The notes under the pieces are model-generated. The model saw only the letters and a list, made by a program, of their open reading frames with translations. It did no database searches and was not told the DNA's origin. 38,695 nt of DNA from Corynebacterium sp. (GTDB taxonomy: Bacteria > Actinomycetota > Actinomycetes > Mycobacteriales > Mycobacteriaceae), in assembly GCA_030527885.1 (NCBI GenBank), contig JAUMZY010000019.1:1-38695 (forward strand). Direction: 5' to 3'. The number at the start of each line of letters is the position of its first letter. Positions within the stretch are counted from its first letter, which is position 1. Below, piece after piece: positions 2 to 29,747 of this stretch. The translations under genes were made by a program, and so were the position numbers.

Positions 2-2524
2 ACCCACATTACGGACACCCACATTAAGGAGTGGGAATCCGGGGAATCCAAGGACGAAGCGTTTTTCGCTCCGGTGGGCCGTGGGGAGAATATACCCGGG
101 GTGGATCTCACCGGCCTGCCGCCAGCCACCATGCTCACGCCACTTGACCGCTTTCAACTGCGGCTTTCTACTGTCACGGCGGCGCAGCCCACGACGCAAA
201 CCAGCCCGTGCGGCATCCTCAACGGCCAGCATGTGACCATTGTGCACCGCGACGACACGACGTATCACCTGTGGAGCCCGTTGGGGGATTTTCGGTCGCA
301 GCATGCCATCACGGTGACACTTCGACGCCCCGGCGGCGGGACATGGCTGATTGCCAGCGACCCCAAGGCGGGCAACAGCATCATTGACGCGGAAACAGAT
401 CAGGTGATTTCGCAAGCATTATCGGTTTATGTTGATTCCCGGCCCGCCGACTACATCCATCACCTACCACCGAGTGCTTTCCACCAGCTGCACCCCCGGG
501 ACCTGGCAATGAGCACAAAACTGCGGGCCACCACCTGGGAACAAGCCCTAACACTACTGAGCAACCCAACCCTGGAAACCATCGCACAATTATTCGGATC
601 AAATGCTGTGCTGGGCAAGAGCATCCTCAACATTGTTACGAGCGTGCAGGAATTACGCGGGCAGATACAGAAAATCACAGCGCTGCACACCACCACACCC
701 CACAACATGCTCAGCACTGCAGCCCTGGAACTCCTCAGCCTAGCCAGCAGCAGCAGCACCCGCTGGAGCCCAGAAGGACAATTGCACGACAACATTCTGC
801 CGCAGCTGCTGGCCACCCCCGGCGTGGTGACACTCAGCCGGGCAGAAACCCAACTGTTCAACGGCTGGTGGGAACTCCTAGGGCAAGAAAAAGCAATCGT
901 GGCCACCATTTCCGCCCCGATGCACAACCCGGAAACCGTTGTGGAACTGTGCGAATGGTTGCTCAAAGCGGCAGCTAGCGGCACGTTTGGCTCCGGGTGG
1001 CGCCACCACGTTGTGGATCGTGCCGCCGTCCCTGATGCTCCCACTTGCGAGTGGTGGCATGGCGCGTGGTTTTACGGTGGCTCCAGCACGTTTAGTTGCG
1101 TGCTAGTGCATCCTGAACACACTGATTATGCGCACATTCCGCTTCACACCCATCCGTATGAGCCGGATATGTTTCTACCACAGGCAGAATTTGTGGCGTG
1201 CATTACTGCCATCATGCGGTGGGCGCAGCAGCGCAGCGAAAACCCACCGGCGGAGCTTATGCTTTTCGACGGCGCGGCGTCGAACGCGGTGCCGAGCTTG
1301 GTGGGGCCAGCCGATGCAACGCTGGACAACACAGCGCCGGACAATGCAGCGCCGCGCGGCCGATCATTGGCCGCAGCCGCGCAACAGCTGGCCACCGGCA
1401 CCATTTTCCTCCCAGAGACCGCCCAGTATTTCCTCGCAGGCCTGAAGAAAAACACCTATTACAACTGGGGTGTACTAGACACAGACTACCGGGAAGCATT
1501 AGGGCTGGGCACAGCAGAGGCCACAGCCGCCTTAAACCAGCTACGCGGCATCCACCACATAGAATGGTTGCAGGCAATTGGTGTGGATTCGGATTTCCAC
1601 ACAACCGGATTCAACATAGATGCGCTGGTCACGTACCTACAAGAACGCTACTCCCAACCGTTCATGCACATCACCACCGCACAATTCAACCATGCCGTGC
1701 GCCACGGACAATGGCCCTCGTTGGTCAACCATGCGATTGGCTCCGCCACGCACGCCCCCAACCACATGGATGCCCAAGACGCCGGCAACTACCTGGCCAT
1801 CTTGCTGTACTTGGTCAACCTCCTAGATTTGGGTGATACGCGCCGGAACATACTTGCCTGCAAACTCACGGCACTGAAAGCATTCAGCCGCACCCAACAG
1901 TGGACGGGGCTTGGTGCCATGGATCTGGGCTGCAACTACGGCAACCGGTATTTCAACCAGCGGATCACCCATGATGCACAAGTCATTCGGGCCTTAACAG
2001 AAGGACTGCTAGATTCCCTGATCATCAACCTGGAACAGCAACCCACACGAACCGGAAACGCCTTCGACCCGGTTGCCGCCGCCCCGGATGTGGTACATGA
2101 TGCTGCAGAAACCTTAAAAGTCCCGCACGAGAGCGCTCGGTATTTCTTGCAAATCTTGGCGCTAGCACGCCCCACGGACGCCAACGTCCGGGAATGGAAT
2201 GACTGGAAGAAGAAAGACATCGACCGGGCAGCCACCCCATTGGTAGAGAAAAAACTACTCGTGATGGCGAAACGCGCCGGCGCCGGCCGAACCCGGTTTC
2301 TCCCCGGCGGGTGGGCAGAAAAAGCACCCGGCTCGGTACCCATGGAAGTATGGAAAGCACCACACTATTTACTGTGGCAGGACGCCAAAATCCGGCCCAT
2401 TATCAAAGGCTGTCCGCCGATACTTCCCACCGCAGAACTCTTCGCCACCACGTGGGAGCGCTACAAAAATGGTGGCACCCCAGGCTACGAAAAGTTACGA
2501 ACCCAATGCTACCGCCGACCCTAA
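2..2524 (+). CDS. Large protein of unknown function, first of three tandem paralogues (5' end outside window)
   Basis: The frame is open from the left edge, so the true start is probably outside the window; a GTG at 74 is an internal candidate giving 816 residues. I do not recognise the function. The last ~160 residues form a well-conserved block (TGNxFDP, then APDVV, ESARY, PTDxN, WKKKDID, RFLPGGW, MExWKAPHYLLW) shared with the next gene. From memory this 'FLPGGW...EAWK' block resembles the C-terminus of large actinobacterial proteins often annotated as DNA-binding; that is a weak inference. A second shared block starts about residue 265 (WWELLGQEK, then VELCEWL and a GSGW motif). No signal peptide or membrane segment is visible, so it is probably cytoplasmic. 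The gene contains one copy of the CGTCGAAAAGC word (reverse strand, 1261-1271). Confidence 0.75.
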   Translation, partial: THITDTHIKEWESGESKDEAFFAPVGRGENIPGVDLTGLPPATMLTPLDRFQLRLSTVTAAQPTTQTSPCGILNGQHVTIVHRDDTTYHLWSPLGDFRSQHAITVTLRRPGGGTWLIASDPKAGNSIIDAETDQVISQALSVYVDSRPADYIHHLPPSAFHQLHPRDLAMSTKLRATTWEQALTLLSNPTLETIAQLFGSNAVLGKSILNIVTSVQELRGQIQKITALHTTTPHNMLSTAALELLSLASSSSTRWSPEGQLHDNILPQLLATPGVVTLSRAETQLFNGWWELLGQEKAIVATISAPMHNPETVVELCEWLLKAAASGTFGSGWRHHVVDRAAVPDAPTCEWWHGAWFYGGSSTFSCVLVHPEHTDYAHIPLHTHPYEPDMFLPQAEFVACITAIMRWAQQRSENPPAELMLFDGAASNAVPSLVGPADATLDNTAPDNAAPRGRSLAAAAQQLATGTIFLPETAQYFLAGLKKNTYYNWGVLDTDYREALGLGTAEATAALNQLRGIHHIEWLQAIGVDSDFHTTGFNIDALVTYLQERYSQPFMHITTAQFNHAVRHGQWPSLVNHAIGSATHAPNHMDAQDAGNYLAILLYLVNLLDLGDTRRNILACKLTALKAFSRTQQWTGLGAMDLGCNYGNRYFNQRITHDAQVIRALTEGLLDSLIINLEQQPTRTGNAFDPVAAAPDVVHDAAETLKVPHESARYFLQILALARPTDANVREWNDWKKKDIDRAATPLVEKKLLVMAKRAGAGRTRFLPGGWAEKAPGSVPMEVWKAPHYLLWQDAKIRPIIKGCPPILPTAELFATTWERYKNGGTPGYEKLRTQCYRRP

Positions 2525-2882
2525 AATTGTGCGAAATTCTAATAGGTATTGGTTCGGTAACAGTGCACCATCCACAGGAGTTTCACCAGCAGAGTAAACC
2601 ATCAAAACCACCCATGTGGCTGCCGAATCGTAGAAATAAGGTGGTGCGACAAGCAGCTTTTCGACGCCCCCAGCGTACATGACATTTTCCAGTGATACAT
2701 GCCTGGGGTGGCATCTAAACTCGTAGCTATATTCCATACAGAATGAGGATCAGGCCACAGAACCACACAGCACCATACTACGTAACCCACATAAAATAGG
2801 GTATGCCGCCAGCATGACAAACGCCAATGCTTGACCACATCTTCACAACAAACCCCCCGACACTACTTGAGGAGAAACACAC
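2525..2882. other. Intergenic region between paralogues 1 and 2
   Basis: No convincing gene is seen. The stretch carries one reverse-strand copy of the repeated word (GCTTTTCGACG, 2656-2666). This lies inside a 19-bp sequence identical to one found just after the gatA terminator at 9287-9305. No clear promoter can be named. Confidence 0.5.
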
Positions 2883-2972
2883 ATGTTGAAGCCGGCAGGC
2901 GTCGAAAAGCAAGAAACCCACCGTACTCACCTCAGCCACGCAGCATCATATCTACTTATCGACAACACGTGA
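2883..2972 (+). CDS. Possible 29-residue small ORF upstream of paralogue 2
   Basis: An ATG at 2883 is preceded by a good ribosome-binding site (GAGGAG at 2870-2875, about 7 nt spacing). It is followed by 29 sense codons and a TGA at 2970-2972, ending 15 nt before the start of the next gene. The peptide begins MLKPAGVEKQETHR and matches nothing I know. The CGTCGAAAAGC word at 2900-2910 lies inside it. It could be a translated leader that feeds ribosomes to the poorly preceded start at 2988, or a remnant of a duplicated gene start. Confidence 0.3.
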   Translation: MLKPAGVEKQETHRTHLSHAASYLLIDNT

Positions 2973-2987
2973 TGGGGACCACTCGCC

Positions 2988-4580: not shown

Positions 4581-4582
4581 AC

Positions 4583-5616: not shown

Positions 5617-5676
5617 AAACCCATCTTCGCTATCCTGGGAAAGAGCCACCCCACCCCCAAAGCAAAGAGCACACCT

Positions 5677-6486
5677 ATGAAAATCGCCATCGGACAAATC
5701 AGCACCGGCCCCAACAAAACCGACAACCTCGAACTCGTCACCCACGCCACCACCGTCGCAGCCCAAAACCAAGCCCAACTCATCGTCTTCCCCGAAGCCA
5801 CCATGCAAGCTTTTGGCACCGGGCGCCTCGATGAAACCGCAGAACCCCTGGACGGCGCCTTCGTCGACAAGCTCACAACCCTAGCCCACGACCACAACAT
5901 AGCCATCGTCCTCGGCATGTTCCGCCCCGCCGACCAAATCACCACCGACGGCAAAACCATCAACCGCGTCTTCAACACCGCCATTGTCGTCCAACCCGAC
6001 GGCACCCGCATCCACTACGACAAAATCCACACCTATGACGCCTTCGGCTACCGCGAATCCGACACCGTCAAACCCGGCAACCAACTCGTCACCTTCACCT
6101 ACGACAACCTCACCTTCGGCCTCGCAACCTGCTACGACCTGCGCTTCCCCGAACAATTCCGGCAATTAGCGCGCCGGGGTGCTGAGGTTATTCTTGTGCC
6201 GATTTCGTGGGCTGGTGGTCCGGGGAAGTTGCAGCAACGCCAATTGCTTATTCAAGCCCGTGCCCTGGATTCCACCAGTTGGCTGGTGGCTGCGGATCAA
6301 ACGCATTACGAAAACACCACCGCCCCCCGCGGTGTTGGGCACTCGGCTTTTGTCCGCCCGGATGGCAGCATCGCCATGGAGGCCGGTGAGGACACCGAGG
6401 TTCTCCTTTTCGACACTGATCCGCATCTCGTCCACCACATGCGCACCCAAATTCCCGTGCTTGTGGCCGACGAAACCTACGATTAA
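5677..6486 (+). CDS. Carbon-nitrogen hydrolase (nitrilase superfamily amidase)
   Basis: A 269-residue nitrilase-fold enzyme of the usual length for Nit/omega-amidase-like members. The catalytic triad is visible as Glu40 (FPEA), Lys116 (HYDKIHTYD) and Cys152 (TCYDLRFPE). Such enzymes hydrolyse small amides such as deaminated glutathione, alpha-keto acid amides or N-carbamoyl compounds; the substrate cannot be told from sequence. It is cytoplasmic, with no signal peptide. The ATG at 5677 lies 60 nt after the upstream paralogue, with a purine-rich AAAGCAAAGAG stretch in front. Codon usage changes abruptly near 6165: the first half uses mostly C/A-ending codons, the second half many G/T-ending codons. 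It is convergent with the ACT-domain gene, whose coding end overlaps its stop by a few bases. Confidence 0.88.
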   Translation: MKIAIGQISTGPNKTDNLELVTHATTVAAQNQAQLIVFPEATMQAFGTGRLDETAEPLDGAFVDKLTTLAHDHNIAIVLGMFRPADQITTDGKTINRVFNTAIVVQPDGTRIHYDKIHTYDAFGYRESDTVKPGNQLVTFTYDNLTFGLATCYDLRFPEQFRQLARRGAEVILVPISWAGGPGKLQQRQLLIQARALDSTSWLVAADQTHYENTTAPRGVGHSAFVRPDGSIAMEAGEDTEVLLFDTDPHLVHHMRTQIPVLVADETYD

Positions 6487-7750: not shown

Positions 7751-9244
7751 ATGACAAACAAATACCTAGTAGGCGCACCAGAGTCACACGAGCTCACCCA
7801 CCTCACCGCCGCTGAACTCGCAGAGAAAATCCACAACCGCGAAGTAACTTCCGTCGAGGTGACCCAGGCCCACCTCGACCGCATCGCTGACATTGATGGC
7901 GACCTTAACGCGTTCCTGCACGTTGGCGCCGACGAAGCCCTGGCAGCAGCCCACGCCGTTGATGAGCAGTTAGATTCCGGCGCCGCCCCGACCTCGGCGC
8001 TCACTGGTGTGCCACTCGCGCTCAAAGATGTTTTTACCACCACAGATGCCCCCACCACCTGCGGATCCAAGATGCTCGAAGGCTACATGGCGCCTTACGA
8101 CGCCACCGTAACCACCCGCATCCGCCAGGCCGGTATACCCATCCTGGGCAAAACCAACATGGATGAATTTGCCATGGGGTCATCCACCGAGAACTCCGCT
8201 TACGGTCCCACCCATAACCCTTGGGACCTAGAGCGCACCGCCGGTGGCTCCGGTGGTGGCTCCTCAGCAGCACTGGCCTCCGGCGAAGCCCCGCTCGCCA
8301 TCGGCACCGACACCGGCGGATCCATCCGCCAGCCCGCAGCACTCACCAACACTGTGGGTGTGAAACCCACCTACGGCACGGTTTCCCGCTACGGCCTCGT
8401 GGCCTGCGCTTCCTCCCTCGACCAAGGCGGCCCAACCGCCCGCACCGTCCTCGACACCGCGCTGCTCCACGAAGTCATAGCTGGCCCCGATAAGTTCGAC
8501 GCCACCAGCGTGGATAAGCCCGTGGCCCCCGTTGTAGCCGCCGCCAAAGAAGGTGCGCGGGGGGATCTCAGCGGCGTACGCATCGGCATCGTCAAGCAAT
8601 TCGACCGCGACGGCTACCAAGACGGCGTTCTTACACAATTCCACAAAGCAGTAGACCAACTTCAGGCACTCGGCGCCAACCTGGTTGAAGTCGACTGCCC
8701 CCACTTCGACGACGCCCTCGCCGCTTACTACCTCATCCTGCCCTGCGAAGTTTCCTCCAACCTCGCACGTTTCGACGGTATGCGCTACGGTCTCCGTGTC
8801 GGCGATGATGGTACCCACTCCGCCGAAGAAGTCATGGCGCTCACCCGTGCCGCTGGCTTTGGGCCCGAAGTCAAACGCCGCATCATTCTCGGCACCTACG
8901 CTCTATCCGTCGGCTATTACGATGCCTACTACCTCCAAGCTCAACGAGTTCGCACCCTCATTGCCCAAGACTTTACTAACGCCTATCAGCAATGTGATGT
9001 GCTCATTTCCCCCACAACCCCCACCACGGCCTTCAAACTCGGCGATAAAATCTCCGACCCCATGGCCATGTACAACTTCGACTTGTGCACTCTGCCCCTC
9101 AACCTCGCGGGACTGTGCGGCATGTCCCTGCCCGCCGGACTTGCCGACGACACCAACCTCCCCGTTGGCCTGCAAATCATGGCGCCGGCCTTTGCCGACG
9201 ACCGGCTCTACAAAGTAGGCGCAGCCTTCGAAGCCACGTTCTAA
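7751..9244 (+). CDS. gatA: Aspartyl/glutamyl-tRNA amidotransferase subunit A
   Basis: A 497-residue amidase-signature protein. The Ser-cisSer-Lys catalytic set is intact: Lys92 (LALKDVF), Ser167 in the glycine-rich [10 protein letters not shown] motif and Ser191 in [10 protein letters not shown]. The spacings of 75 and 24 residues are the same as in characterised GatA. It generates ammonia from glutamine and passes it to GatB. The ATG at 7751 follows gatC by 8 nt, with GGGGGAG as ribosome-binding site at the gatC end. A strong hairpin follows the stop codon (9258-9289). Confidence 0.96.
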
Positions 9245-9289: not shown

Positions 9290-9308
9290 GGGGGCGTCGA
9301 AAAGCAAC

Positions 9309-10550
9309 TTACGTGCCTTTTACATTCAAGACCTGCCGCAACTTGTGTTTGATCTCCACCAAATCCTTGGAGTCCTCCATGACCTGATCGATGTCCTTAT
9401 AGGCGTCCGGAATTTCATCAATCCATTCCTCACCCTGCCGGTACACAATGCCCGTCATGCGGTGTGCCAAATCATCAACCGTGAACCGGCGCCGGGCCTC
9501 CGTGCGGGAGAACCGGCGGCCCGCCCCATGCGGCGCCGAGCGCAAGGAAGCAACATTGCTCTTGCCCTCAACCACATAAGAAGCAGTACCCATGGAACCC
9601 GGGATCAGCGCAAACCGACCCTCATCCGCATGCACGGCACCCTTGCGGGTCAACCACACGGTACGGCCGCAGTGCTCTTCCCGCTCGGTGTAGTTGTGGT
9701 GGCAATTGATCCGCTGAATTTCCTGCACCTCTTCGCCCATGAACTCAGCCAAACAAGCGTTAAACCGATCCATCATTTCCTCCCGATTGAGGAAGGCAAA
9801 GCGCTGCGCCCAGTGCAAATCCCGAATATAACTATCAAATTCCGGAGTGCCCTGCACGAAATACGCCAAATCATTATTGCCGATGGGGATCCACCACTTC
9901 GCCATTAATGCTTGCGCAATATCAATGTGTTTCCGGGCGATCTTATTACCCACACCCCGGGAACCCGAGTGCAGAAACATCCACACGGTATCAGTTTCAT
10001 CCAAGCACAATTCAATGAAGTGGTTACCGCCACCCAACGACCCCAATTGCTGCCGCCACTTGGGCGAATGTGACAAATCAACATCGTTTTCCTCCGCCAA
10101 TTTCGCCAATTCGCGGCACCGCTCATCGGCAGAACCCGGCAGGATCCATTCATCGTTGTAGTTACCCGGCGACAAGGGAATAGCAGCTTCGATGGCATCG
10201 CGGAGCTGCGTCAGATCCTTGCCCTCCAGGTCAGCGGCGGTAAACTGCGTGCGTACCGCAATCATGCCGCAACCAATATCCACACCCACGGCCGCCGGAA
10301 TGACGGCATCAATGGTGCCGAACACAGTGCCCACGGAGGAACCAAGTCCAGTGTGCGCATCGGGCATCAGCGCCACATGCGGGTAGATGAATGGCAATTG
10401 TGCCAGCTCTTCGGCCTGTGCCAGGGTGGATTCCTCCAACACAGAGGCGAACGAAATGACCTTCTTGGGATCAGTATTCAAGTGACGATTGAGGTAAGCA
10501 ATGTCCTTACGGCTCTTGCGCTTATTCTTACCTCGAAACTTGCGTGTCAT
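9309..10550 (-). CDS. rtcB: RtcB-type RNA ligase (3'-phosphate/5'-OH ligase)
   Basis: A 413-residue protein with the hallmark RtcB motifs in order: MPDAHTGLGSSVGTV, VGVDIGCGM (metal-binding Cys), SLGGGNHFIEL, HSGSRGVG, CHHNYTE, IPGSMGTASYVVEG and SAPHGAGR (the His that becomes guanylylated). RtcB seals RNA ends bearing 2',3'-cyclic phosphate or 3'-phosphate to 5'-OH, in RNA repair or tRNA splicing. I choose the ATG at 10550 because AGGAG lies ten bases upstream; the ATG at 10559 is too close to it, and the extra codons to 10622 look non-coding. No archease or rtcA is adjacent. It is convergent with gatA. Confidence 0.93.
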   Translation of the reverse strand: MTRKFRGKNKRKSRKDIAYLNRHLNTDPKKVISFASVLEESTLAQAEELAQLPFIYPHVALMPDAHTGLGSSVGTVFGTIDAVIPAAVGVDIGCGMIAVRTQFTAADLEGKDLTQLRDAIEAAIPLSPGNYNDEWILPGSADERCRELAKLAEENDVDLSHSPKWRQQLGSLGGGNHFIELCLDETDTVWMFLHSGSRGVGNKIARKHIDIAQALMAKWWIPIGNNDLAYFVQGTPEFDSYIRDLHWAQRFAFLNREEMMDRFNACLAEFMGEEVQEIQRINCHHNYTEREEHCGRTVWLTRKGAVHADEGRFALIPGSMGTASYVVEGKSNVASLRSAPHGAGRRFSRTEARRRFTVDDLAHRMTGIVYRQGEEWIDEIPDAYKDIDQVMEDSKDLVEIKHKLRQVLNVKGT

Positions 10551-11540
10551 TGCACGCATTCTCCTTTCTTCAACATCCCACAATGTGGGAAGGGAGAGTT
10601 GGTTAATAATTCCGGTGCACATGCACCATAGGGTTCATGCTTGCGTATGGCATTCGCCCGCAACCCAATCGGCTTAGTGCCCGATGGGCCCGATGGGTTA
10701 GTAGCTGATGAATTAGTGGCTGATATGAACCGAAATACAAAAAATGCCGCTCATGTTGCTTAGATGTACGAGGCGGCGGCGAAAATAGAAAGAAATTTCA
10801 GATATCAGCGTTGATGTTCTCGCTGATGCTGAGGTGAAATCTCTCCACCACGACCTGGCAGCAACCTCAAGGATGGGGTTCCGGGCAGATGTCCGCCACG
10901 TGCAATACGTGGTTCTATCAGCAGTAATCCGAGTAGTCGCATTGCCTAACCATCCTTTCGTTCGTTGTGGCCAATTTTATGGCGGGGAAAAATTTTCTGT
11001 TGGCTTTTGTCGCCACTAACCAGTAGTAGTTCACCACCCGGCAGGCCGCAAGGGTTAACCCCCGAAAAGGCCACCGCAACTACCCCCGCAGTTGTGGGGC
11101 GTGGGGGTGCGGCTCAGTGGGGGTTTGCGCCTTGATTGAGCAGGCATGATGTGGAAAATGGTGGGGTGGTTTTTCTGGGAGTTTGTGCCGGATGATTCCG
11201 CAGGTTGGTGGGGGTAGTGTTGCGGGGGTGGTTGGAGGTGCTGTTGTCCTTGGGTGTGGTTTTGGTGGCGGGGTAGCTGGCCGCGGGTTGATGCCTATGG
11301 GTGGCCGCCATGGGTAAAAGGCCAGGGTGTGCGGGGTTTGGCGGTCGGGTGGAGGGCTAGATGCTATCCATTAGAAAAAATTTATGAATAGCGTGCGCTG
11401 CTGTGCTGCGGTGTTGTTGCGTTGCTGTGGAGCGGGGTGGGGTGGGGCGTTGCGGGGGCGTTAACAAACAACCTTGTTTGTTAGTTCGTGGTCCGTCGAT
11501 AGTGTGCTAACAGTGAACTCTGGGATTCGTGGCGGGGGGA
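10551..11540. other. Gene-poor region upstream of rtcB
   Basis: About 1 kb without a convincing coding frame. The first part holds the rtcB leader, with a perfect small hairpin TCCCAC-AAT-GTGGGA (10576-10590). Further out are ATCAGCG/CGCTGAT arms (10804-10827) and CCACGT-GCAAT-ACGTGG (10896-10912), possibly parts of a structured RNA. From about 11040 to 11460 the plus strand is very G-rich. A short open frame at 10834-11019 lacks a ribosome-binding site and recognisable features. Confidence 0.4.
11462..11483. repeat. Perfect 22-bp palindrome, candidate operator
   Basis: Arms TAACAAACAA and TTGTTTGTTA are perfect inverted repeats separated by only CC. A 2-nt loop disfavours an RNA hairpin and favours a dimeric repressor site. 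It lies about 60 bp upstream of the TATAAT of the riboswitch transcript. No regulator gene is adjacent. Confidence 0.5.
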
Positions 11541-11542
11541 GT

Positions 11543-11550
11543 GCTATAAT
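11543..11550 (+). promoter_or_regulatory. Extended -10 promoter element of the riboswitch transcript
   Basis: TGCTATAAT (TGN plus a perfect TATAAT) lies about 10-15 nt before the predicted 5' end of the cobalamin riboswitch. No strong -35 box is visible at 17 bp, which is compatible with an extended -10 promoter. Confidence 0.55.
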
Positions 11551-11559
11551 GTTCGTGCA

Positions 11560-11742
11560 CTCAGAAGTGAGCTGGTGAAGCCAAATGTGTGTAATGGCTT
11601 CATGGGAATCCGGTGTAAAACCGGAACTGGCGCGCAGCGGTGAGTGGGGACCGCCCCATCCAAAGGCCACTGGCTAATCCAAGCTGGGAAGGCGTTGGGG
11701 GCTACGGGATGATCCACAAGTCCGAAGACCGACCAGCTCTGA
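11560..11742 (+). ncRNA. Cobalamin (B12) riboswitch
   Basis: The conserved core is complete and in order: the GAAGCC/GGCTTC stem (about 11577-11600), GGGAATCCGGTG (11604-11615) with its pairing CCGG, AGCGGTGA (about 11636), GCCACTGG (11666-11673) and the 3' B12 box AAGTCCGAAGACCGACC (11718-11734). These match the adenosylcobalamin riboswitch consensus, which normally lowers expression of the downstream gene when B12 is plentiful. Unusually, no B12-related coding gene follows directly. The next plus-strand protein gene, an ABC permease, starts 1.07 kb downstream, beyond a strong terminator and an opposing gene. Confidence 0.92.
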
Positions 11743-11749
11743 CCATCAT

Positions 11750-12213
11750 TGTGGCCCTCGCGTCCAGGCGCCGCCTGATAACAACATGGTGTTACTGGTG
11801 CTGGTCTTCGTGACGGCCAGCAGCATAACCATGGGGGAGTGGACGACTATCGCCCGAACTCCAAGCATCAGCTAGGTCCGCCGATGGATATCACTTGTGG
11901 TGTTTATCGGTGCTCCTGCGTGCTGTCTTGTATATGACGTACCAACGAGTAGCACACGTTGTTGGCTGTCAGTGACAACGTTCGGTCGTACCCATATCAA
12001 GGCACAAACATATGGCACGGTTTGCCTGTCACACAGGTGAGGGCCGTGGCGCATCGCCTAATGGGACTTTCCCACTCCCTGTTCCAGGGGGCGAAGCTTG
12101 CACCACGGTTCGTGGCCGGCACACCAGCCATGCGGATGCCCAAGCCCACCTGCGGCGATTGGTGAATGTGAGCACCAATATTGCATTGTCGCAGGTGGGC
12201 TTGGTTTATTTTT
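11750..12213 (+). ncRNA. Candidate structured non-coding RNA downstream of the B12 riboswitch
   Basis: No frame here looks like a real protein: the open frames (for example 11786-11875 and 11959-12165) lack ribosome-binding sites and familiar motifs. The stretch is dense in perfect short hairpins: CCGAT/ATCGG (11881-11910), CGTTGT/ACAACG (11957-11980), CCTGT-CAC-ACAGG (12025-12037), GGCG-CAT-CGCC (12048-12058), TGGGA-CTT-TCCCA (12062-12074), CCCTG-TTC-CAGGG (12077-12089) and CCACG-GTT-CGTGG (12103-12115). It ends in the terminator at 12140-12213. I infer a B12-regulated RNA of about 650 nt including the riboswitch; a decayed gene is the main alternative. Confidence 0.4.
12140..12213 (+). terminator. 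Strong intrinsic terminator ending the riboswitch transcript
   Basis: Perfect 15-bp arms CCAAGCCCACCTGCG (12140-12154) and CGCAGGTGGGCTTGG (12190-12204) are followed by TTTATTTTTA. The intervening loop contains its own 7-bp hairpin (ATTGGTG/CACCAAT, 12158-12179), giving a branched stem. Just downstream lies a copy of GCTTTTCGACG (12216-12226). Confidence 0.85.
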
Positions 12214-12268
12214 ACGCTTTTCGACGTGCTTATCGACGCCGGTTGCGGCGGCATTTCAGTCCGCTAAA

Positions 12269-12598
12269 TTAATCCTTGAGGTCGCTGAGCACGCCGGCGG
12301 CCCCCGCCGCCAGAGCCGTGACCGTGAGGACGGAAGGCCAAGCGCCAATCTTCTTAGCCAAGGGGTGCGATAGGCCGAAAGCAGTGATGTACGTGGCGCC
12401 CAAACCAGCTGCCAAAGGTGCCCCACCCTTGGCCAACCAGGAGCGGCCAGCCCACAGTCCGGCGGCCCCAAGAACCACCCCGCCCAAGGGGCGGATGCCT
12501 GATTCCCGGGCGGTGAGCCAGCCGCCAATCAGGCCGGTGGTGATGATGGCTGCGGTGTTCACTTCTTTAGCGTCTTTTAATGCAAAACTCATAGTCAT
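12269..12598 (-). CDS. Small hydrophobic protein of unknown function
   Basis: A 109-residue protein (MTMSFALKDAKEV...) rich in Gly, Ala and Leu, with three or four short hydrophobic stretches (AAIITTGLIGGWL, GGVVLGAAGLWAG, APLAAGLGATYITAFG, VLTVTALAAGAAGVL). It is therefore probably a small inner-membrane protein. The ATG at 12598 has an AGG ribosome-binding site at good distance; the ATG at 12592 is an alternative. It is convergent with the riboswitch transcript and divergent from the ABC importer. I do not recognise a named family. Confidence 0.7.
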   Translation of the reverse strand: MTMSFALKDAKEVNTAAIITTGLIGGWLTARESGIRPLGGVVLGAAGLWAGRSWLAKGGAPLAAGLGATYITAFGLSHPLAKKIGAWPSVLTVTALAAGAAGVLSDLKD

Positions 12599-14630: not shown

Positions 14631-14682
14631 CGCAGCTGGAAGCGTCGACAAGCAAGAACGCACAAAAAGGAGCACACACCTT

Positions 14683-15813: not shown

Positions 15814-15984
15814 CACCATGAGCACGGGGTGCGGCGCGGTTTCACCAACCATCCACATATTGCTGCACCAGCGTGGTCATTAATGGCATGTCAAGAACCC
15901 GATTGTGCCTTTTGGCGCTGGTTTACGCACACTGGCGGCGTCGAAAAGCGGGATCGGTGACAAGTAATAATCAAGGAAAAAATC

Positions 15985-17746: not shown

Positions 17747-17941
17747 TTACCACCCACCACCAAAACCAGCCCTGCCGCCGTTAATCAGCACGGCAGCACC
17801 CCATTCCTGCCCCATTCTCATCCCTATTGTCACTCTTATTGTCACGGGCATTATCACCAGCCACGGTTAGAATTTTAAAAAGTATATATGTATATATGAT
17901 GGACTGTTGTATCAGTGATAAATCAAAAAATGAGTGGCAGC

Positions 17942-19183
17942 ATGACAATAGAAAAAACTGACGAACAGGTCAAACATCCCAGCGCAGCAACGCTTTATTT
18001 AGCATCAGTATTGTTTTCCGCACTAGGCAATGCCGTCGCAAATGTCGTGTGGCCCTGGATGGTGCTGCAACGCACCGGCGACGCCGCCACCGCAGCGTTT
18101 GTATCCACCATCATCGCCATCCCCTCCGCAATTTTTGCCTTCGTTGGCGGGCAACTCATCGACAAGTTCGGCCGCAAACGCATAAGCGTTATTTCCGACG
18201 TCATTTCCGCCACCTCTGTGGTTGCCCTCATCCTCGTGGATACCAGCTTGGAAATCACCGTGGCGTGGTTCATCGCCATCGGTATTTTCGGCGCCATCGG
18301 CGACGTGCCCGGCATGGCGGCCCGCACAGCCTTGATTGGCGATATTTCCCGCCGCTCCGGTAAAAGCGTGGATTGGCTATCCGGCGCCAGCCAAGGCGTG
18401 GGCGGCATTAGCTTCCTCGTCGGCCCGGCCATCGCCGGTGGCATGCTGGCGCTTTTCGATATGACATCCATACTGTGGATCACCGCGGCTTGCTCTGGGT
18501 TGGCAGCACTGCTCACCTTGCTGATCCGCCTTGGCGCCAGCACCGATGATTCCCACGCTGCCGATAAGGACTTCAGCTTGCGCGCTTGGCGGGAAATTCT
18601 TTCCGTGCGCGTGATCCGGCTGTTCCTGTGGACGATGCTGCTCATGCAGATCCTCATCGCCCCATTCATGTTGGTGCTCCTGCCGGCGCATTTCGAAAAA
18701 ATCAACAACCCCACCGCCATGGGCATCGCCATGTCCGGCTTCGCCGTCGGGATGATCATCGGCAGTGTGTTCATCGCTCGCATCGGCATGGATCGCCGCC
18801 GCCTCCTGTGGGCGTACGCCATTGGCCTGGAAGCCATAGCGTTTTTCAGCATAGCCTGGTTGAACGTCACCCCGATAATCATCGTTGGCATGTTCATCGC
18901 CGGCATCAGCAGTGGCCTGGGCCAACCACTGGTTACCGTGTTCATCACCGAAAAAATCCCCGAGCATCAACGCGGCCGGGCGTTCTCCATCTTCAGCATG
19001 ATTGGTCTGCTGGCCAGCCCCGTTGGGTTGGCGTTGAGCACCGGCATCTTGCAATTCAGCAGCATTTACCAAGTGGCAATCATTTTGGCAGTCGTCGGCG
19101 TCATCGGCATGATTGGTTCCATCATCATGGGCTTCCGGGTCCTGGAAGACCGCGACCCAACAGAGTCGGCGCCGTCTGCTTAG
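17942..19183 (+). CDS. MFS exporter (DHA3-like, 12 TM)
   Basis: About 413 residues with twelve hydrophobic segments and an MFS motif A in the first loop (GGQLIDKFGRKR). It resembles the DHA3/MFS_3 class (macrolide efflux, EntS-like siderophore export). ATG 17942 follows GAGTGGCAGC; ATG 17930 and GTG 17915 are in-frame alternatives and none has a strong ribosome-binding site. Placement after an iron/B12-type importer makes siderophore or drug export possible, but the substrate is unknown. An alternating A/T tract (17883-17900) just upstream could be an operator. It is convergent with the SGNH hydrolase. Confidence 0.85.
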   Translation: MTIEKTDEQVKHPSAATLYLASVLFSALGNAVANVVWPWMVLQRTGDAATAAFVSTIIAIPSAIFAFVGGQLIDKFGRKRISVISDVISATSVVALILVDTSLEITVAWFIAIGIFGAIGDVPGMAARTALIGDISRRSGKSVDWLSGASQGVGGISFLVGPAIAGGMLALFDMTSILWITAACSGLAALLTLLIRLGASTDDSHAADKDFSLRAWREILSVRVIRLFLWTMLLMQILIAPFMLVLLPAHFEKINNPTAMGIAMSGFAVGMIIGSVFIARIGMDRRRLLWAYAIGLEAIAFFSIAWLNVTPIIIVGMFIAGISSGLGQPLVTVFITEKIPEHQRGRAFSIFSMIGLLASPVGLALSTGILQFSSIYQVAIILAVVGVIGMIGSIIMGFRVLEDRDPTESAPSA

Positions 19184-19190: not shown

Positions 19191-19227
19191 TTTTAGCTTG
19201 TCGACGCGGGCCCGTCGACAAGCTAAA
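19191..19227. terminator. Bidirectional terminator made of an inverted pair of the repeated word
   Basis: 15-bp arms TTTAGCTTGTCGACG and CGTCGACAAGCTAAA with a CGGGCC loop sit between two convergent genes. Each arm contains one CGTCGACAAGC word (19196-19206 reverse, 19213-19223 forward). The right arm runs into the stop codon of the minus-strand hydrolase. Confidence 0.75.
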
Positions 19228-19876
19228 GCAAACCCGCCACCACTTCGGCAACCGCAGCACCCAAAACAGCATGCTGCTCCTTATCCAAATGCACCCCATC
19301 CACCGTGCTGCTCGTGGTGACGGAATTGGCGTCAAAGAACACGCAACCGTATTCCGCCGTGATCTGCCGCAACGCCTCCGCCAACCCGGCCGACGCAGTG
19401 TCGCCGCCGGTGAACTTCGGCCCAATCGGGCCCCGCGGCCGATCCAGCGCTGGGGGAGCGATGATGAGGATCTGTGGCATGGGCATGTCGGGTTCCAAGG
19501 GGGTGGCGCGGATGGCATCAATGATCGCCGCGATGCCCATGGCGGAATGCCACGGAGTGTGCCGATGCATGGACTGAAAATCATTGGTGCCCAGCATGAT
19601 GATCATGACCTCCACTGGTGATTGCGCCTCAATGACCTGCCCAATTCCGATCAAACCGCTGCGGCCCGGCTTGTACGGATCCTCGAAAGCGGTGCGGCGC
19701 CCATTGAGACACTCCTCAGTCACATGCACAACCATGTCCGGGGTGCGCTCGTTGAGGGCGCGCATCATGACTTGCGGCCAGCGGGCGGCGTAATCCAACC
19801 GGCGGCGCGTGAGAGGAATGATGCCCCACGATAAGGAATCACCATACACCACTACATGCTTGAATTCTGTCATCAT
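19223..19876 (-). CDS. GDSL/SGNH-family hydrolase
   Basis: A 217-residue SGNH hydrolase: block I YGDSLSWG with nucleophile Ser14, a block III-like LGTNDF, and block V DGVHLD supplying the catalytic Asp and His near residue 195. Members hydrolyse acyl or acetyl esters; the absence of a signal peptide suggests a cytoplasmic esterase or lysophospholipase-like enzyme. The start ATG at 19876 (or 19873) has only a weak GGTGG ribosome-binding site. It is divergent from the DHA2 exporter and convergent with the MFS gene. Confidence 0.85.
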   Translation of the reverse strand: MMTEFKHVVVYGDSLSWGIIPLTRRRLDYAARWPQVMMRALNERTPDMVVHVTEECLNGRRTAFEDPYKPGRSGLIGIGQVIEAQSPVEVMIIMLGTNDFQSMHRHTPWHSAMGIAAIIDAIRATPLEPDMPMPQILIIAPPALDRPRGPIGPKFTGGDTASAGLAEALRQITAEYGCVFFDANSVTTSSTVDGVHLDKEQHAVLGAAVAEVVAGLL

Positions 19877-22546: not shown

Positions 22547-22590
22547 AAGCATCGAAAAGCTAACATACGTGGACTTTTCGATGCTTTCCC
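22547..22590 (+). terminator. Terminator of pfkA built on the repeated-word variant
   Basis: 13-bp perfect arms AAGCATCGAAAAG (22547-22559) and CTTTTCGATGCTT (22574-22586) with a 14-nt loop and a short T-rich tail. The arms are a one-base variant of the CGTCGAAAAGC word as an inverted pair. Confidence 0.7.
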
Positions 22591-22626
22591 TCATGCACCA
22601 CTAACCCAAATGAAGAGGAAAAACTA

Positions 22627-23745: not shown

Positions 23746-23760
23746 CTGTTAGGGGAGTGG

Positions 23761-23794
23761 GCAGTCACCTGTGGGGTTGGGTGGCTGCTTTTTT
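23761..23794 (+). terminator. Intrinsic terminator after ald
   Basis: Arms GCAGTCACC and GGTGGCTGC (one G-T pair) are followed by six T residues (23789-23794), immediately after ald. Confidence 0.8.
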
Positions 23795-23848
23795 GGTGCG
23801 TGGTAGGGTGGTATTAACCCTGGGCCTATTGATAGTTGGACTATTACT

Positions 23849-24106
23849 ATGCGTATTTCTGAGCCCAGTGCTTTGCTTTTCGCCCAAGGCGTGATAGTTC
23901 TCCGCACACAATTCTCCGAAAGTCTCCTCACCCAGCTTGTCGACGACCACCAAACCGCCATCACGGAACTCAGCCTGTACCTGGGGTTGCAGCTTGATGT
24001 TGGTTCCTGGACTATCCCCACCTGGTTTGCCACCACAACATTGCTGACCATGGCACTTGCATTTAGCCTGCTGGCCATAACCCGGATTCGCGCCCGCATC
24101 GCTTGA
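23849..24106 (+). CDS. Possible small membrane-anchored protein (85 aa)
   Basis: The frame MRISEPSALLFAQGV... ends in one good transmembrane helix (IPTWFATTTLLTMALAFSLLAI) followed by a positively charged tail (TRIRARIA). It sits alone between the ald terminator and a methyltransferase pseudogene. There is no ribosome-binding site and no recognised family, so it could be spurious. It carries a CGTCGACAAGC copy (reverse strand, 23935-23945). Confidence 0.3.
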   Translation: MRISEPSALLFAQGVIVLRTQFSESLLTQLVDDHQTAITELSLYLGLQLDVGSWTIPTWFATTTLLTMALAFSLLAITRIRARIA

Positions 24107-24189
24107 GTGTTGCTTGGATTGCCTTGGAGTGTCTGGGGTGCCTTGGGCGATGCCTCGGATGTTGCCGCGAAGTGGGATAGAGTAGCTGA

Positions 24190-24797
24190 ATGGTGGTTGA
24201 TGGTCTTGAACATGTTCGAACAACATACGGTGCCCGGGCGGGGGAGTACATAGCGGCACCCGGCAGCATTGACCATGCGGCCGCCCCTGACCTTGAATTC
24301 ATCGCACAATGGGCACACAGCATCAACGGACCTGTACTTGATGTGGGCTGTGGCCCGGCCAATGGACCCAGTACCTCTGTGACCTAGGACTTGATGCTTG
24401 CGATCTTGACCCTGTGCCCGAGTTCATTGCGCACGCTCAAGCAACCTACCCCGGTGTGCACTACCAGGTGGGAAGTGCCGAAGCATTAGGCGTTGAAGCC
24501 GAAACACTCGGCGGCATCCTCGCCTGGTACTCACTCATCCATATTCAACCTGCACAACTAGGCACAGTACTCGAAGAGTTCAGGCGCTGCCTACGCCCAG
24601 GTGGTGGTTTAGCCTTGGGATTCTTCACCGGTTCCGCATTGGCACCATTCGAACATGCCATCACCACTGCGTACTACTAGCCCATTGATCTTTTCATCAC
24701 CGAACTGGCAGCGGCCGGCTTCACCACCACTCATACAGAAATCCGCACCGACCCCAACACTCGCCCGCACGCCGCCATCATGGCACGGTGGGCATAA
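24190..24797 (+). pseudogene. Class I SAM-dependent methyltransferase, broken
   Basis: The first frame (from 24190) reads VRTTYGARAGEY...GPVLDVGCGPA, the motif I of SAM methyltransferases, then runs out at 24387. The neighbouring frame picks up at about 24360 with QWTQYLCDLGLDACDLDPVPEFI and continues through motifs RCLRPGGGLALGFF, so one base has been lost near 24350-24360. A TAG at 24678-24680 then interrupts AYY*PIDLFITELAAAGF; it is probably a TGG Trp codon mutated. The natural end is TAA 24795-24797. Two lesions make this a pseudogene unless the sequence has errors. Confidence 0.8.
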
Positions 24798-24799
24798 AA

Positions 24800-26050: not shown

Positions 26051-26238
26051 GGCACCTAAGGATTTTCCTGTTCAATCGCCAATACATCTGTTCATAAATA
26101 TACCCGACCCAAACTCATATTTCGCAATTATCATTCAGCAATATCAGGGTTTTCGGGGCATCTCAATCCCAGGGCTGAGAACCAATTTCACGCCCCAGGG
26201 TGACGCCACAACCACACCCCACCAGCAATGATAGAACC
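26051..26238 (+). promoter_or_regulatory. Leader of the ABC exporter-kinase operon with CCCAGGG direct repeats
   Basis: Two direct CCCAGGG repeats (26168-26174 and 26194-26200), 26 bp apart, lie 40-70 bp before the ATPase start. Such a pair could be a response-regulator site for the operon that contains its own sensor kinase. This is an inference; no promoter hexamers are clear. Confidence 0.3.
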
Positions 26239-27150
26239 ATGCACAACAACGAGTACCACATCATCCGCACCCACGGGCTCACCAAAAACTTCGGTACCGC
26301 CTGCGCCGTCAACAACATCGACCTGTTGGTACCCCAAGGATCCGTCTACGGTTTCCTCGGCCCCAACGGCTCCGGCAAATCCACCACCATGAAACTCCTC
26401 CTGGGGCTAATCCAACCCACCGCCGGCGAGGTCTTCCTCATGGGGCAGAAACTCACAAAAACCAGCCGCCCAGAACTCCTGCCCCACATCGGTTCCATGA
26501 TCGAAGCCCCACCCGGGTATGGGCACCTCACCGGGTGGGAAAACCTCAAAATCATCCAAACTATGCTGGGACTCCCAGAACGCAACATCACCTGGGCACT
26601 CGACACCGTACGACTCACCAAAAACAAAGACAAACTGGTCAAAAACTACTCCCTCGGCATGAAACAACGCCTCGGCATTGCCATGGCATTGGCCCGCCAA
26701 CCCCACATCCTCATCCTCGACGAACCCACCAACGGCCTCGACCCAGCCGGCATTGAAGAAATCCGCTCCCTCATCACACACCTAGCAGAACAAGGCATCA
26801 CTATCATGGTATCCAGCCACCTGCTGGACGAAATCGACAAAACCGCCACAGTACTTGGCATCATCAACAACAGCTCCCTCATCTTCCAAGGCAGCCGCGA
26901 AGAACTCTTCGGCCAATCCCTACCAGACCTCATCATCGAAACAGACCACGCCCACCAACTCCACAACTTCTCCGGTGCACACATGCTCAACCCCACCACA
27001 GTGCGCCTACCCAACCTCACTAAACCAGAAGGCGCACAACTACTATGGCAACTCCATAACCAAGGCGCACAAATCTTCGAAGCCAAACGAGCACAACAAT
27101 CCCTCGAAGAAATCTTCATGAACCTCACCGCACAGGGCCAACTCCAATGA
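26239..27150 (+). CDS. ABC-2 exporter ATPase (BcrA/lantibiotic-immunity-like)
   Basis: About 303 residues starting at ATG 26239 (the longer frame from 26200 adds an unlikely extension). It shows Walker A GPNGSGKST, Q-loop MIEAPPGYGHLTGWENL, signature YSLGMKQRLGIAMAL, Walker B ILDEPTNGLDPAG and H-loop SSHLLDE. The sequence resembles BcrA-type ATPases that export or protect against peptide antibiotics. Its TGA overlaps the ATG of permease 1 (ATGA). Codon usage is strongly C/A-ending throughout. Confidence 0.9.
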   Translation: MHNNEYHIIRTHGLTKNFGTACAVNNIDLLVPQGSVYGFLGPNGSGKSTTMKLLLGLIQPTAGEVFLMGQKLTKTSRPELLPHIGSMIEAPPGYGHLTGWENLKIIQTMLGLPERNITWALDTVRLTKNKDKLVKNYSLGMKQRLGIAMALARQPHILILDEPTNGLDPAGIEEIRSLITHLAEQGITIMVSSHLLDEIDKTATVLGIINNSSLIFQGSREELFGQSLPDLIIETDHAHQLHNFSGAHMLNPTTVRLPNLTKPEGAQLLWQLHNQGAQIFEAKRAQQSLEEIFMNLTAQGQLQ

Positions 27151-27881
27151 TTACCCTCGAACTCCAGAAACTCCGCCGCCTGAAACTCAGCATCCTCGTA
27201 GGCGGCATGCTCCTGGCACTATGCCTGTTCAACCTCATGCCCTTGTTCTCGTCGAAAAGTACAACCACCATCGACCTCGCCGGCGAACTCATGGGCATCG
27301 AAACCGCCCAAGCCCTCTTCGTCCCCATCCTCATCGCCATCATCACCACCCGCCTGGTGGAAATTGAGCACTCCGGCAACGGCTGGCAGGTCTTTTCCCT
27401 CGCCGGGGCCGCGCCGGGCACGTTGTGTCGGGTGAAGTTTGCGGTGCTGGCGCTAATCATCACGGTGTTTACGGCGTTGGAGATTCTCATTCCGCTGGGT
27501 GTTTGTGCCGTGGTGGGGGCTGACAACATGAATGTGGCGGCGTGGGTGAGTTACGGCGGTTGCGTGTTGATCATGAATCTGTTGTGCTGCATGTTTCATA
27601 TTGTGGTGGCGCAGCGGTTTGAGAACCAGCTGGTGAGCATTGGGGTGGGTGCGTTGGGTGCATTCATCGCTATGTTTTGTTACCTGTTGCCGCCGGTGGT
27701 GGTGCGGTTTATTCCGTGGGGGTATTACGCCATAGTTTCCACTGTTACCACGAGCCCGGAGGCACACGGAGCTATTTATATCAATCCGGGGTGGAATTAT
27801 GTGTGGTTTGTGGGCTTCGCTGTGCTCGTCACGGCTTGGTTTTATCGCCACACCATTACACTGAATGCAGGAGAGAAGTAA
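27147..27881 (+). CDS. ABC-2 exporter permease 1
   Basis: A 244-residue membrane protein with an N-terminal LELQKLRRLKLS stretch, then about six hydrophobic segments typical of lantibiotic-immunity-type ABC-2 permeases. The conserved cytoplasmic EHSGNGWQ segment follows the second membrane segment. It is translationally coupled to the ATPase by an ATGA overlap. The codon style flips from C/A-ending to G/T-ending near 27410, mid-gene. Confidence 0.85.
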   Translation: MITLELQKLRRLKLSILVGGMLLALCLFNLMPLFSSKSTTTIDLAGELMGIETAQALFVPILIAIITTRLVEIEHSGNGWQVFSLAGAAPGTLCRVKFAVLALIITVFTALEILIPLGVCAVVGADNMNVAAWVSYGGCVLIMNLLCCMFHIVVAQRFENQLVSIGVGALGAFIAMFCYLLPPVVVRFIPWGYYAIVSTVTTSPEAHGAIYINPGWNYVWFVGFAVLVTAWFYRHTITLNAGEK

Positions 27882-27882
27882 C

Positions 27883-28632
27883 ATGTTGTATGCAGAAATG
27901 CTGAAGATCCGTCGCTCGCATATGTGGGTTGTGATCATTGTTTTGCCGCTGCTGGCGGTGGTGACAGGCTCGCTGAATTATCAGGCTAATCAGGGTGTGC
28001 TGAGCCACGGTTGGGATTCCCTCTTTGGGCAGGTGCTGTTGTTCTACTCCTTGTTTTATTTCTCCATGGGGGTGACCATCATCGTGGCGGCGTCGTGGCG
28101 GATGGAGCATCAGGGTTCCAATTTCACCATGCTGCGCACGTCAACCCGGCGCACCGTGTCGCTGATTGCGGCAAAGACCGCCAGCACATTGGTGCTGGTT
28201 GGGGTGATGCAGGTGGTGCTGATTGTGGGCACCGTGGGGGTGGGCATGGTGCTGGTGGGTTCTGGGGCTGGTATGATTGGAAAATACCTGTTCATCGCCG
28301 TGCTTGGTGTCATTGTTGCCATTCCACTCGTGCTCCTGCAATCAGTGCTATCCATGTACCTGACATCGTTCGCCGCACCGGTGGCTTGGTCGTTCCTGGG
28401 CATCGTCATTGGCACTGGCTTGAGCCTGGCACCTGGCGTGTTGGGGAATCTCGCCTTAGTATTTCCGCATAGTTTGGTCACCCGCACGCTCAGCATCGCA
28501 TCTATCACCATGGGTAACGATGCCGCCATCAAGGTGGGGGACATCGCCCAAATCCTCGTGGCAACAATTGTTCTCGCGGCGGCGTTGATGCTGGTATTCG
28601 TCCGCATCTTCAACAATCGAGAACGCTCATGA
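27883..28632 (+). CDS. ABC-2 exporter permease 2
   Basis: A 249-residue membrane protein beginning MLYAEMLKIRRSHMW, with six hydrophobic segments and a WRMEHQGSN motif that parallels EHSGNGWQ of permease 1. The two permeases probably form a heterodimer. ATG 27883 is chosen for the GGAGAG ribosome-binding site; the six-codon longer start is unlikely. Its TGA overlaps the start of the sensor kinase gene. Confidence 0.85.
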   Translation: MLYAEMLKIRRSHMWVVIIVLPLLAVVTGSLNYQANQGVLSHGWDSLFGQVLLFYSLFYFSMGVTIIVAASWRMEHQGSNFTMLRTSTRRTVSLIAAKTASTLVLVGVMQVVLIVGTVGVGMVLVGSGAGMIGKYLFIAVLGVIVAIPLVLLQSVLSMYLTSFAAPVAWSFLGIVIGTGLSLAPGVLGNLALVFPHSLVTRTLSIASITMGNDAAIKVGDIAQILVATIVLAAALMLVFVRIFNNRERS

Positions 28633-29747
28633 TGGCGCAGGTGACGGCATGGGTGGGGCATCCGGTGCGGGCGTTGGTTGTTCTTGCCCTCGGGTTGCTT
28701 ACCATCCTGACATATTTGCCGACCCTTGGGACGCTGGGGTTGGTGTTGCATGCGGTGATTCTGGTGGCACTGCTCATCAACCCGAAATACCCCAACGCCA
28801 CCATGGTGGTGCTTGGGGCGACATTCAGCTTTATTATTGCGTGCAATGTTCCTGTGGATGCTCCCCGCATCATCCTTCCCGTTGGGTATACGATCTATCT
28901 GGCCAGCGCGAATGGTAGCCCCAAGTGGCGGCCTGTGTGGCTGGGGTGGATCCTGCTCGGCACCGGCATTGTGAACTTCATCGAAGTTCCCTTCCTGAAT
29001 TTGAATGCGCAAACATTCACGAATCCCTGGCTGTTTCGCATGGTCAGCACCATTACCATGTGGATGTTCGTGGGCTTCTTTTGGCTGCTGGGTGGCATCA
29101 GTCGGCGTCGACAAGCGGAACACCAAGCATTGCAGGACCGTGCGGAACTCTCCGCCGTTGTTGAACGTACCCGCATTGCCCGCGAAATGCACGACATTGT
29201 CGCACACAATTTATCCGCAGTGATCGCCCTTGCCGACGGCGCCCACTACGCCAACGCCACCAACCCGGACGTTGGCACCGAAGCCCTCAAAACCATCGCC
29301 GACACCGCCCGTGACGCGCTCACCCAAATGCGCGGGCTGCTCAGCGTCCTGCGCGACCAGGAGGCCCGTGATCCCGATGCCATCGTCACCGTTGATGCCC
29401 TCAGGGGGTTGCTTTTCGACGCCCGCCGCGCCGGCCTCAACCTCACCGCCGACGGATTCACCAACTTGCCCGATGACCTGCCGCAACTCACCCAATCCAC
29501 CGTGTACCGTATCGTGCAAGAGCTGCTTACCAACATGCTGAAATACGCCCCGGACAAGCGCGGCCACATCACGGCAACCACAACCAAGAAAACCCTCACC
29601 ATCATTGCGAGTAATAAGAATCCTGAGCGTCATGGGGAACCCGGCTTCGGGCTGATCGGCATGCGGGAACGAGTAGCCGCCCTGGGCGGAACACTAGCCA
29701 TCGACGATGGGGGAGATTTCACCGTGACGGTTGTGGTGCCGAGGTAG
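28629..29747 (+). CDS. NarL-type sensor histidine kinase
   Basis: A 372-residue kinase: four to five membrane segments in the first ~150 residues, a HisKA_3 dimerisation motif RTRIAREMHDIVAHNLSA with phospho-acceptor His188, and a HATPase domain (VQELLTNMLKYA, GFGLIGMRERV). It is coupled by overlap to the ABC exporter, so it probably senses the peptide or envelope stress the pump handles. No response regulator follows; the low-GC ESX-Rhs island begins instead. It contains two copies of the repeated word (29106-29116 and 29411-29421). Confidence 0.88.
   Translation: MMAQVTAWVGHPVRALVVLALGLLTILTYLPTLGTLGLVLHAVILVALLINPKYPNATMVVLGATFSFIIACNVPVDAPRIILPVGYTIYLASANGSPKWRPVWLGWILLGTGIVNFIEVPFLNLNAQTFTNPWLFRMVSTITMWMFVGFFWLLGGISRRRQAEHQALQDRAELSAVVERTRIAREMHDIVAHNLSAVIALADGAHYANATNPDVGTEALKTIADTARDALTQMRGLLSVLRDQEARDPDAIVTVDALRGLLFDARRAGLNLTADGFTNLPDDLPQLTQSTVYRIVQELLTNMLKYAPDKRGHITATTTKKTLTIIASNKNPERHGEPGFGLIGMRERVAALGGTLAIDDGGDFTVTVVVPR

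Follow-up and report, generated by a model that had tools for sequence, protein, structure and literature searches.

The window analysed here is a stretch of 38,695 nucleotides (positions 1 to 38,695 of contig JAUMZY010000019.1) from a Corynebacterium sp. whose 1.64 Mb genome is 53% complete; the window is contig 15 of 25, and its own genome is labelled G000, the other G numbers being labels of the genomes searched. Its genes include gatA and rtcB, a carbon-nitrogen hydrolase gene, genes for an ABC-transporter ATPase and for periplasmic binding proteins, and a histidine-kinase-like gene, and within and between such genes recurs a short word, CGTCGANAAGC. An earlier reading of the letters without database searches (the sequence-only reading) had claimed 13 copies of CGTCGAMAAGC, seven with A and six with C at the variable base and seven forward and six reverse, in genes and gaps alike, and had called the word uptake-signal-like. 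The recount agrees in each of these particulars, with exactly 13 copies spanning 1261-29421 in the same split of base and strand and in both kinds of location, and none of 100 dinucleotide shuffles reached 13 (mean 0.02, largest 1). With the variable base left free, the window holds 14 exact copies of CGTCGANAAGC, the fourteenth having T, and five further copies with one mismatch bring the matches to 19 (shuffle mean 1.68). The exact copies, and the hairpin formed by one inverted pair of them, are as follows.

1261..1271, reverse strand: CGTCGAAAAGC, within reading frame 74-2524
2656..2666, reverse strand: CGTCGAAAAGC, in the gap 2525-2987
2900..2910, forward strand: CGTCGAAAAGC, in the gap 2525-2987
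5862..5872, forward strand: CGTCGACAAGC, within the carbon-nitrogen hydrolase gene 5677-6486
9295..9305, forward strand: CGTCGAAAAGC, between convergent gatA (7751-9244, forward) and rtcB (9309-10622, reverse)
12216..12226, reverse strand: CGTCGAAAAGC, in the gap 10623-12275
12228..12238, reverse strand: CGTCGATAAGC, the fourteenth and new copy, adjoining the copy at 12216..12226 in the same orientation
14643..14653, forward strand: CGTCGACAAGC, between the ABC-transporter ATPase gene and a binding-protein gene
15939..15949, forward strand: CGTCGAAAAGC, between two periplasmic-binding-protein genes
19191..19228, no strand: hairpin from the inverted pair, between an MFS frame (17915-19183, forward) and a GDSL-lipase frame (19223-19876, reverse)
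19196..19206, reverse strand: CGTCGACAAGC, left arm of the inverted pair
19213..19223, forward strand: CGTCGACAAGC, right arm of the inverted pair
23935..23945, reverse strand: CGTCGACAAGC, within frame 23749-24318 (reverse), which has no Pfam match
29106..29116, forward strand: CGTCGACAAGC, within the histidine-kinase-like gene 28629-29747
29411..29421, reverse strand: CGTCGAAAAGC, within the histidine-kinase-like gene 28629-29747

The crude gene caller used for the statistics below picked another frame at 5862..5872 and so scores that copy as lying in a gap, and every NCBIfam match of the histidine-kinase-like gene falls under its cut-off. No copy was found in the window beyond 29421, so the RHS/YD-repeat stretch of about 32.3-38.6 kb is without copies.

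The word in the window's genome

The word is neither confined to the window nor near its expected frequency. CGTCGAMAAGC occurs 476 times genome-wide (233 forward, 243 reverse) against 18 times (6 and 12) for the reversed word, the listed sites span eight other contigs, and 241 congeners, also searched, are described below. A Markov model, the check proposed with the sequence-only reading, expects 0.68 copies of CGTCGAAAAGC in 439 kb of this genome, where 71 were counted. When position 7 is left free in the same sample the counts are A 71, C 42, T 31 and G 7, while one-base neighbours at the other positions number 0-3 copies, the exceptions being 8 copies with T at position 11 and 4 with A at position 2; the word is CGTCGANAAGC, with ten bases fixed and one free. 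The flanks carry weak preferences, for an upstream G that recurs every third base and for A/T immediately downstream, and because these are weak CGTCGANAAGC is, to judge from its surroundings, a ten-base recognition pattern rather than the tip of a longer repeat. In five other genomes examined the favourite spelling of each is just as sharply bounded; small departures include 7 copies with C at position 9 in G009 and 8 with A at position 6 in G001.

The 151 sites of the genome sample divide into 70 on the forward and 81 on the reverse strand. By crude gene calling 51 of the 151 lie outside reading frames, which cover 85.3% of the sample and leave 14.7% free (p 3.5e-9), and another limit on frame length gives 46 of 151. 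Among types of gap no significant preference emerged, with 13 convergent sites against 8.0 expected (p 0.08) and 7 divergent against 12.2 (p 0.10). Copies within frames are spread very unevenly over the codon phases, 44 of 101 sharing one phase, as expected of a word that has to encode tolerable amino acids as well.

One inverted pair, 19196-19223, had been proposed to form a terminator. The pair folds on either strand (-29.2 and -30.5 kcal/mol, z -5.3 and -5.0) and the MFS and GDSL-lipase frames that flank the hairpin at 19191..19228 are convergent, which bears out a strong hairpin in a suitable place; no T-run follows it, so that it is not a canonical terminator. We regard it as likely to act as a non-canonical bidirectional terminator. 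A search for inverted pairs of the CGTCGANAAGC spelling with arms 3-30 bases apart in 242 genomes, 46 of them poor in the word, found such pairs in 91, most in G234 (14), G197 (11), G109 (10) and G000 (10, against about 1.3 by chance according to our own arithmetic from the sampled density). The pairs thus exceed chance in G000 and some other genomes, and a use as terminators would be a habit of some lineages and a minor one in the genus as a whole.

Two other features of the window were recorded in passing: four RHS/YD-repeat frames stand in a row at 32334-37880, where the word is absent, and ARAGORN calls a selenocysteine tRNA on the reverse strand at 8307-8399, inside the gatA frame, which is probably a false positive.

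Range, spelling and placement in Corynebacterium

The word belongs to Corynebacterium, in species-specific spellings that keep a core. Densities of the general pattern CRTCGRNAAGC, calculated with genome sizes rounded to 0.1 Mb and with G000 left out, divide the 241 congeners into 179 rich (at least 100 per Mb), 16 intermediate (40-100 per Mb) and 46 poor (below 40 per Mb), and across the 242 genomes including G000 the counts of CGTCGAMAAGC run from 0 to 1105. Three named genomes, chosen as the best GatA matches among named records, hold 765 copies of CGTCGANAAGC (Corynebacterium tapiri; reversed word 15), 621 (C. lemuris; 21) and 543 (C. sp. HMSC078H07; 23). Outside the genus, 149 genomes from 55 genera of the same order reach at most about 48 per Mb, in G285 (163 copies in 3.4 Mb against 66 for the reversed word), and their counts lie at about half to three times those of the reversed word; Rhodococcoides kyotonense has 147 copies of CGTCGANAAGC (reversed 48) and Gordonia otitidis 92 (28). 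Unbiased k-mer counts return as favourite spellings CGTCGATAAGC in G009, CGTCGAGAAGC and CGTCGATAAGC in G002 and CATCGGCAAGC in G001. There is, in short, a genus-wide uptake-signal-like word with species spellings.

The small genome of G012 (2.0 Mb), whose TadE is short and divergent, falls in the poor class for the general pattern, yet 94 kb of it hold 52 copies of a word of its own, TGACGYCGCG. Common to this word and to GCTTNTCGACG, which is the main word read on its other strand, are GACG and a weak G.TT upstream: the bases upstream are G in 48% of copies at -6, T in 54% at -4 and T in 79% at -3, which align with the G.TT of GCTT, and the full GCTT precedes 9 of the 52. A clear dialect GCTTNATGACGYCGCG had been considered for G012 and was dropped after this recount of GCTT. 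The word is either a far dialect or a separate word, and its kinship with the main one is plausible.

Twelve other poor genomes (G007, G011, G018, G043, G049, G121, G128, G132, G143, G207, G216 and G232) were sampled over 60-100 kb each, and several of them hold words at 5-7 copies. The word-poor G206 is 73% GC. Further over-represented words were met along the way. In 200 kb of G002 a second word of unrelated spelling, GGCAAGGACGG, has 20 copies against 0.96 expected; 100 kb of G118 contain TACCTCCGCAT and TATTCTCCGCG 13 times each against about 0.1 expected, which suggests a longer local repeat family; CTAGTCGTGCG, with 7 copies in 60 kb of G018 against 0.02 expected, is a piece of a longer repeated word; and the poor, GC-rich G121 and G216 carry GGCGTCC-like 8-mers at about 2-3 times expectation, possibly a degenerate or different label.

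Orientation relative to origin and terminus was followed through ten stretches each of G002 and G009, and no replichore polarity appeared. The strand counts (forward and reverse) are 20 and 20 in the first half and 12 and 15 in the second half of G002, and 19 and 20 followed by 17 and 20 in G009; because neither genome shows a swing between stretches, the position of the origin is irrelevant to this result. A polarity between origin and terminus, first suspected when forward matches were listed first, was an artefact of the listing order. On the small contigs sampled the word is rare, with 3 copies in 60 kb against 21.0 expected from the genome density; the sample consists of parts of 12 contigs of 4-145 kb from six rich genomes, taken as plasmid-like by their size. 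Conservation was compared between G016 and 60 kb of G015, where, with few sites, all 5 of the G016 sites that align have a perfect counterpart in G015, and 5 of 7 do conversely; both unshared sites align without gaps, one differing at 2 and the other at 4 of the fixed bases. Alignment of the window with three named species yielded no aligned sites.

Competence and pilus genes

Competence and type IV pilus genes, which the sequence-only reading had suggested looking for, are present in almost all of the genomes searched for them. In a sample of 80 genomes (40 poor, 39 rich and G000) ComEC and ComEA each occur in all 80, rich and poor alike, G000 included. Two models of a Tad-type pilus are near-universal: T2SSF domains (TadB/C) in 76 of the 80, missing from G000, G120, G172 and G216, and the TadE-like pilin TIGR03816 in 241 of 242 genomes, missing from G000. 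By eye, the tad cluster adjoins a helicase gene and topA in G009 and G012. As a side observation, a single open frame of about 350-390 codons holds two T2SSF matches in several word-poor genomes, as a fusion of TadB with TadC would.

The TadE minor pilin, identified through a below-cut-off NCBIfam match, comes in three kinds that were distinguished by eye. Type I ends at its C-terminus in GAAARAHAIG..Y.PPRG...FP.E; a second kind, which mostly starts with MNTVEGA or has an ARDAARAAAL stretch, was read in poor genomes only, 15 in number; and a third, GQ.TVETAF, was read in 11 rich genomes and in the poor G206. The type I profile matches strongly in 183 of 241 genomes (161 rich, 12 intermediate and 10 poor, including G012), leaving 58 without a strong match (18 rich, 4 intermediate and 36 poor); of the 46 genomes that lack a match to the profile, 26 were identified by elimination. 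With intermediates excluded, the association between type I and word richness has a Fisher p of 2e-19, a value inflated by common descent. Type I TadE as the sole receptor is weakened by the genus-wide profile and by the third type in rich genomes. Because the association is inflated by descent and has exceptions both ways, it is the tad minor pilins, rather than type I TadE, that we name as the candidate place for a receptor.

A probable uptake label and its alternatives

The description of the word as uptake-signal-like is the one that fits the tests best, as the word is sharp and non-palindromic, lies on both strands and in genes and gaps, and shows no polarity; its species spellings, its rarity on the sampled small replicons and the competence genes of the genus lend further support. 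We consider it probable that most Corynebacterium use a DNA uptake sequence and that CGTCGANAAGC is its local dialect. Corynebacterium has a mycolate outer layer. In the proposed mechanism, a Tad-type (type IVc) competence pilus would carry on display a minor pilin able to bind the word in extracellular double-stranded DNA; retraction of the pilus would draw word-bearing DNA through the mycolate layer to ComEA and ComEC, which would pass one strand into the cytoplasm. Uptake and recombination biased to word-bearing fragments could then spread the copies and keep them nearly perfect, and the preference of the receptor would set the spelling of each clade. Binding of the word, promotion of uptake and the identity of the pilin that reads the word are the steps that we infer here.

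Several observations weigh against such a role. Natural transformation of Corynebacterium is not known to us from any report, and none was found among the open-access papers listed (titles and the starts of abstracts, without subscription papers or preprints). ComEA, ComEC and TIGR03816 do not separate rich from poor genomes; the T2SSF match is missing in the rich G172 as well as in the poor G120 and G216; and in G000, at 53% completeness, none of the three tad models matched. Type I TadE is unnecessary, since 11 rich genomes carry the third type, it is insufficient, G043, G132, G232 and others being poor, and the split that it makes between rich and poor is confounded by ancestry. No clear replacement word appeared in the stretches sampled from the twelve poor genomes, no inverted pair of the CGTCGANAAGC spelling was found in 151 of the 242 genomes, and the comparison of G015 with G016, in which control 11-mers were conserved at 0.43, is suggestive but too small a test.

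The most serious alternative, though an unlikely one, is a nucleoid-associated or chromosome-organising protein with hundreds of non-polar sites and a drifting specificity that gives rise to dialects. Such sites would likewise be chromosomal, non-polar, in genes and gaps and rare on the sampled small contigs, but ten near-invariant bases in up to 1105 copies are sharper than expected for sites of this kind, absence from 46 of 241 congeners is odd for a housekeeping organiser, and we know of no corynebacterial nucleoid protein of such specificity. The losses, the spellings and the sharpness speak for an uptake label over a non-polar organiser. It is rather improbable that the word is a relic, an ancestral uptake sequence that many species now merely keep or are losing through drift: sixteen genomes do sit at intermediate density (40-100 per Mb) and ten poor genomes keep type I TadE, one of them (G012) with its own word, while the rich genomes examined, with near-perfect fixed bases and few one-base neighbours, look unlike decay.

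A Chi-like recombination signal for RecBCD or the AdnAB nuclease would also be over-represented, non-palindromic and chromosomal, and Chi sites too vary in spelling by species. Known Chi sites are shorter than this word, however, no replichore bias is seen, and the RecB model is over its cut-off in 0 of 31 genomes; RecB matches above 150 bits are scattered over the rich G002, G010, G020 and G060 and the poor G206 and do not track the word. The RecB results refute RecBCD-Chi as a general account, as far as the RecB model goes, and we hold a Chi-like signal of either kind to be very improbable. Slightly less credible still is a short selfish or recombinase-associated repeat inserting through the genome, which would account for the high copy number and for some genomes being far richer than others; it is disfavoured because beyond the 11 bases the flanks carry weak preferences (G upstream, A/T downstream), and by the 101 of 151 copies that lie within reading frames with a strong frame preference and by the one base that is free while ten stay fixed. 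The balanced orientation had been taken to argue against an FtsK-type polar motif, and this is borne out by the ten stretches of G002 and of G009, balanced throughout, in which a polar segregation motif is refuted; for the genus we give next to no credence to an FtsK-orienting motif (KOPS) or another replichore-polar signal. In the part of its text available, a paper on FtsK of C. glutamicum names KOPS for E. coli only (PMC11898615).

Within the uptake reading, the closest known systems share some features with the present one and differ in others. Neisseria uses a classical type IVa pilus, unlike Corynebacterium, which has a Tad-type pilus locus. As described in the available parts of the sources, the DNA uptake sequence (DUS) of Neisseriaceae has eight dialects with a CTG core and many inverted pairs, while five relatives are without an abundant word (PMC3630211), and it is read by the minor pilin ComP (PMC3630211; also PMC7371117, PMC3868556). 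The corynebacterial word resembles it, to the extent that these parts describe it, as a short, non-palindromic, high-copy word in genes and gaps, with dialects that share a core, with hairpin-capable inverted pairs and with some relatives lacking an abundant word. It differs in being another word in another phylum, in a system known from sequence whose receptor is a candidate, and in that inverted pairs of the CGTCGANAAGC spelling are a small minority. The uptake signal sequence (USS) of Pasteurellaceae, again from partial texts, has a 9-base core in high copy with two dialects (PMC12616744; also PMC7811141) and a minor pilin receptor by prediction (PMC12616744); the likeness lies in the high-copy short core and the dialects, and the difference in the less conserved elements beside the core of the USS (PMC12616744), where the corynebacterial flanks are weakly biased. 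A third system is that of another actinobacterium, Micrococcus luteus, in which, according to the available text, tadA and comEA are competence genes and transformation proceeds with tad and comEA/comEC genes (PMC6667448), a set of Tad-type pilus genes with ComEA and ComEC of the kind found in Corynebacterium; the term 'uptake sequence' occurs 0 times in that text. Uptake labels outside the two proteobacterial families described with them would be a new setting.

Nor did the open-access papers listed, judged by title and the start of the abstract, include a description of a corynebacterial uptake word, and among the titles listed by an open-literature text search for six spellings none concerned corynebacterial repeats; a paper on spaced motifs mentions Corynebacterium for CRISPR in the part available (PMC5217627).

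Taken further, and with little better than even confidence, we favour a label of self and non-self DNA that is genus-wide with species dialects, in which a Tad minor pilin would read CGTCGANAAGC and its dialects, and which would have arisen independently and could set up sexual barriers. If this is true, 179 of the 241 congeners, about three quarters, either are naturally transformable or once were, each species with its own password, and uptake sequences have a third, independent origin, in an actinobacterial lineage. The mycolate outer membrane poses a crossing problem like that of the Gram-negative outer membrane. The 179 rich and 46 poor congeners form a ready comparison for finding the receptor, and adding the word to donor DNA may render intractable species transformable.

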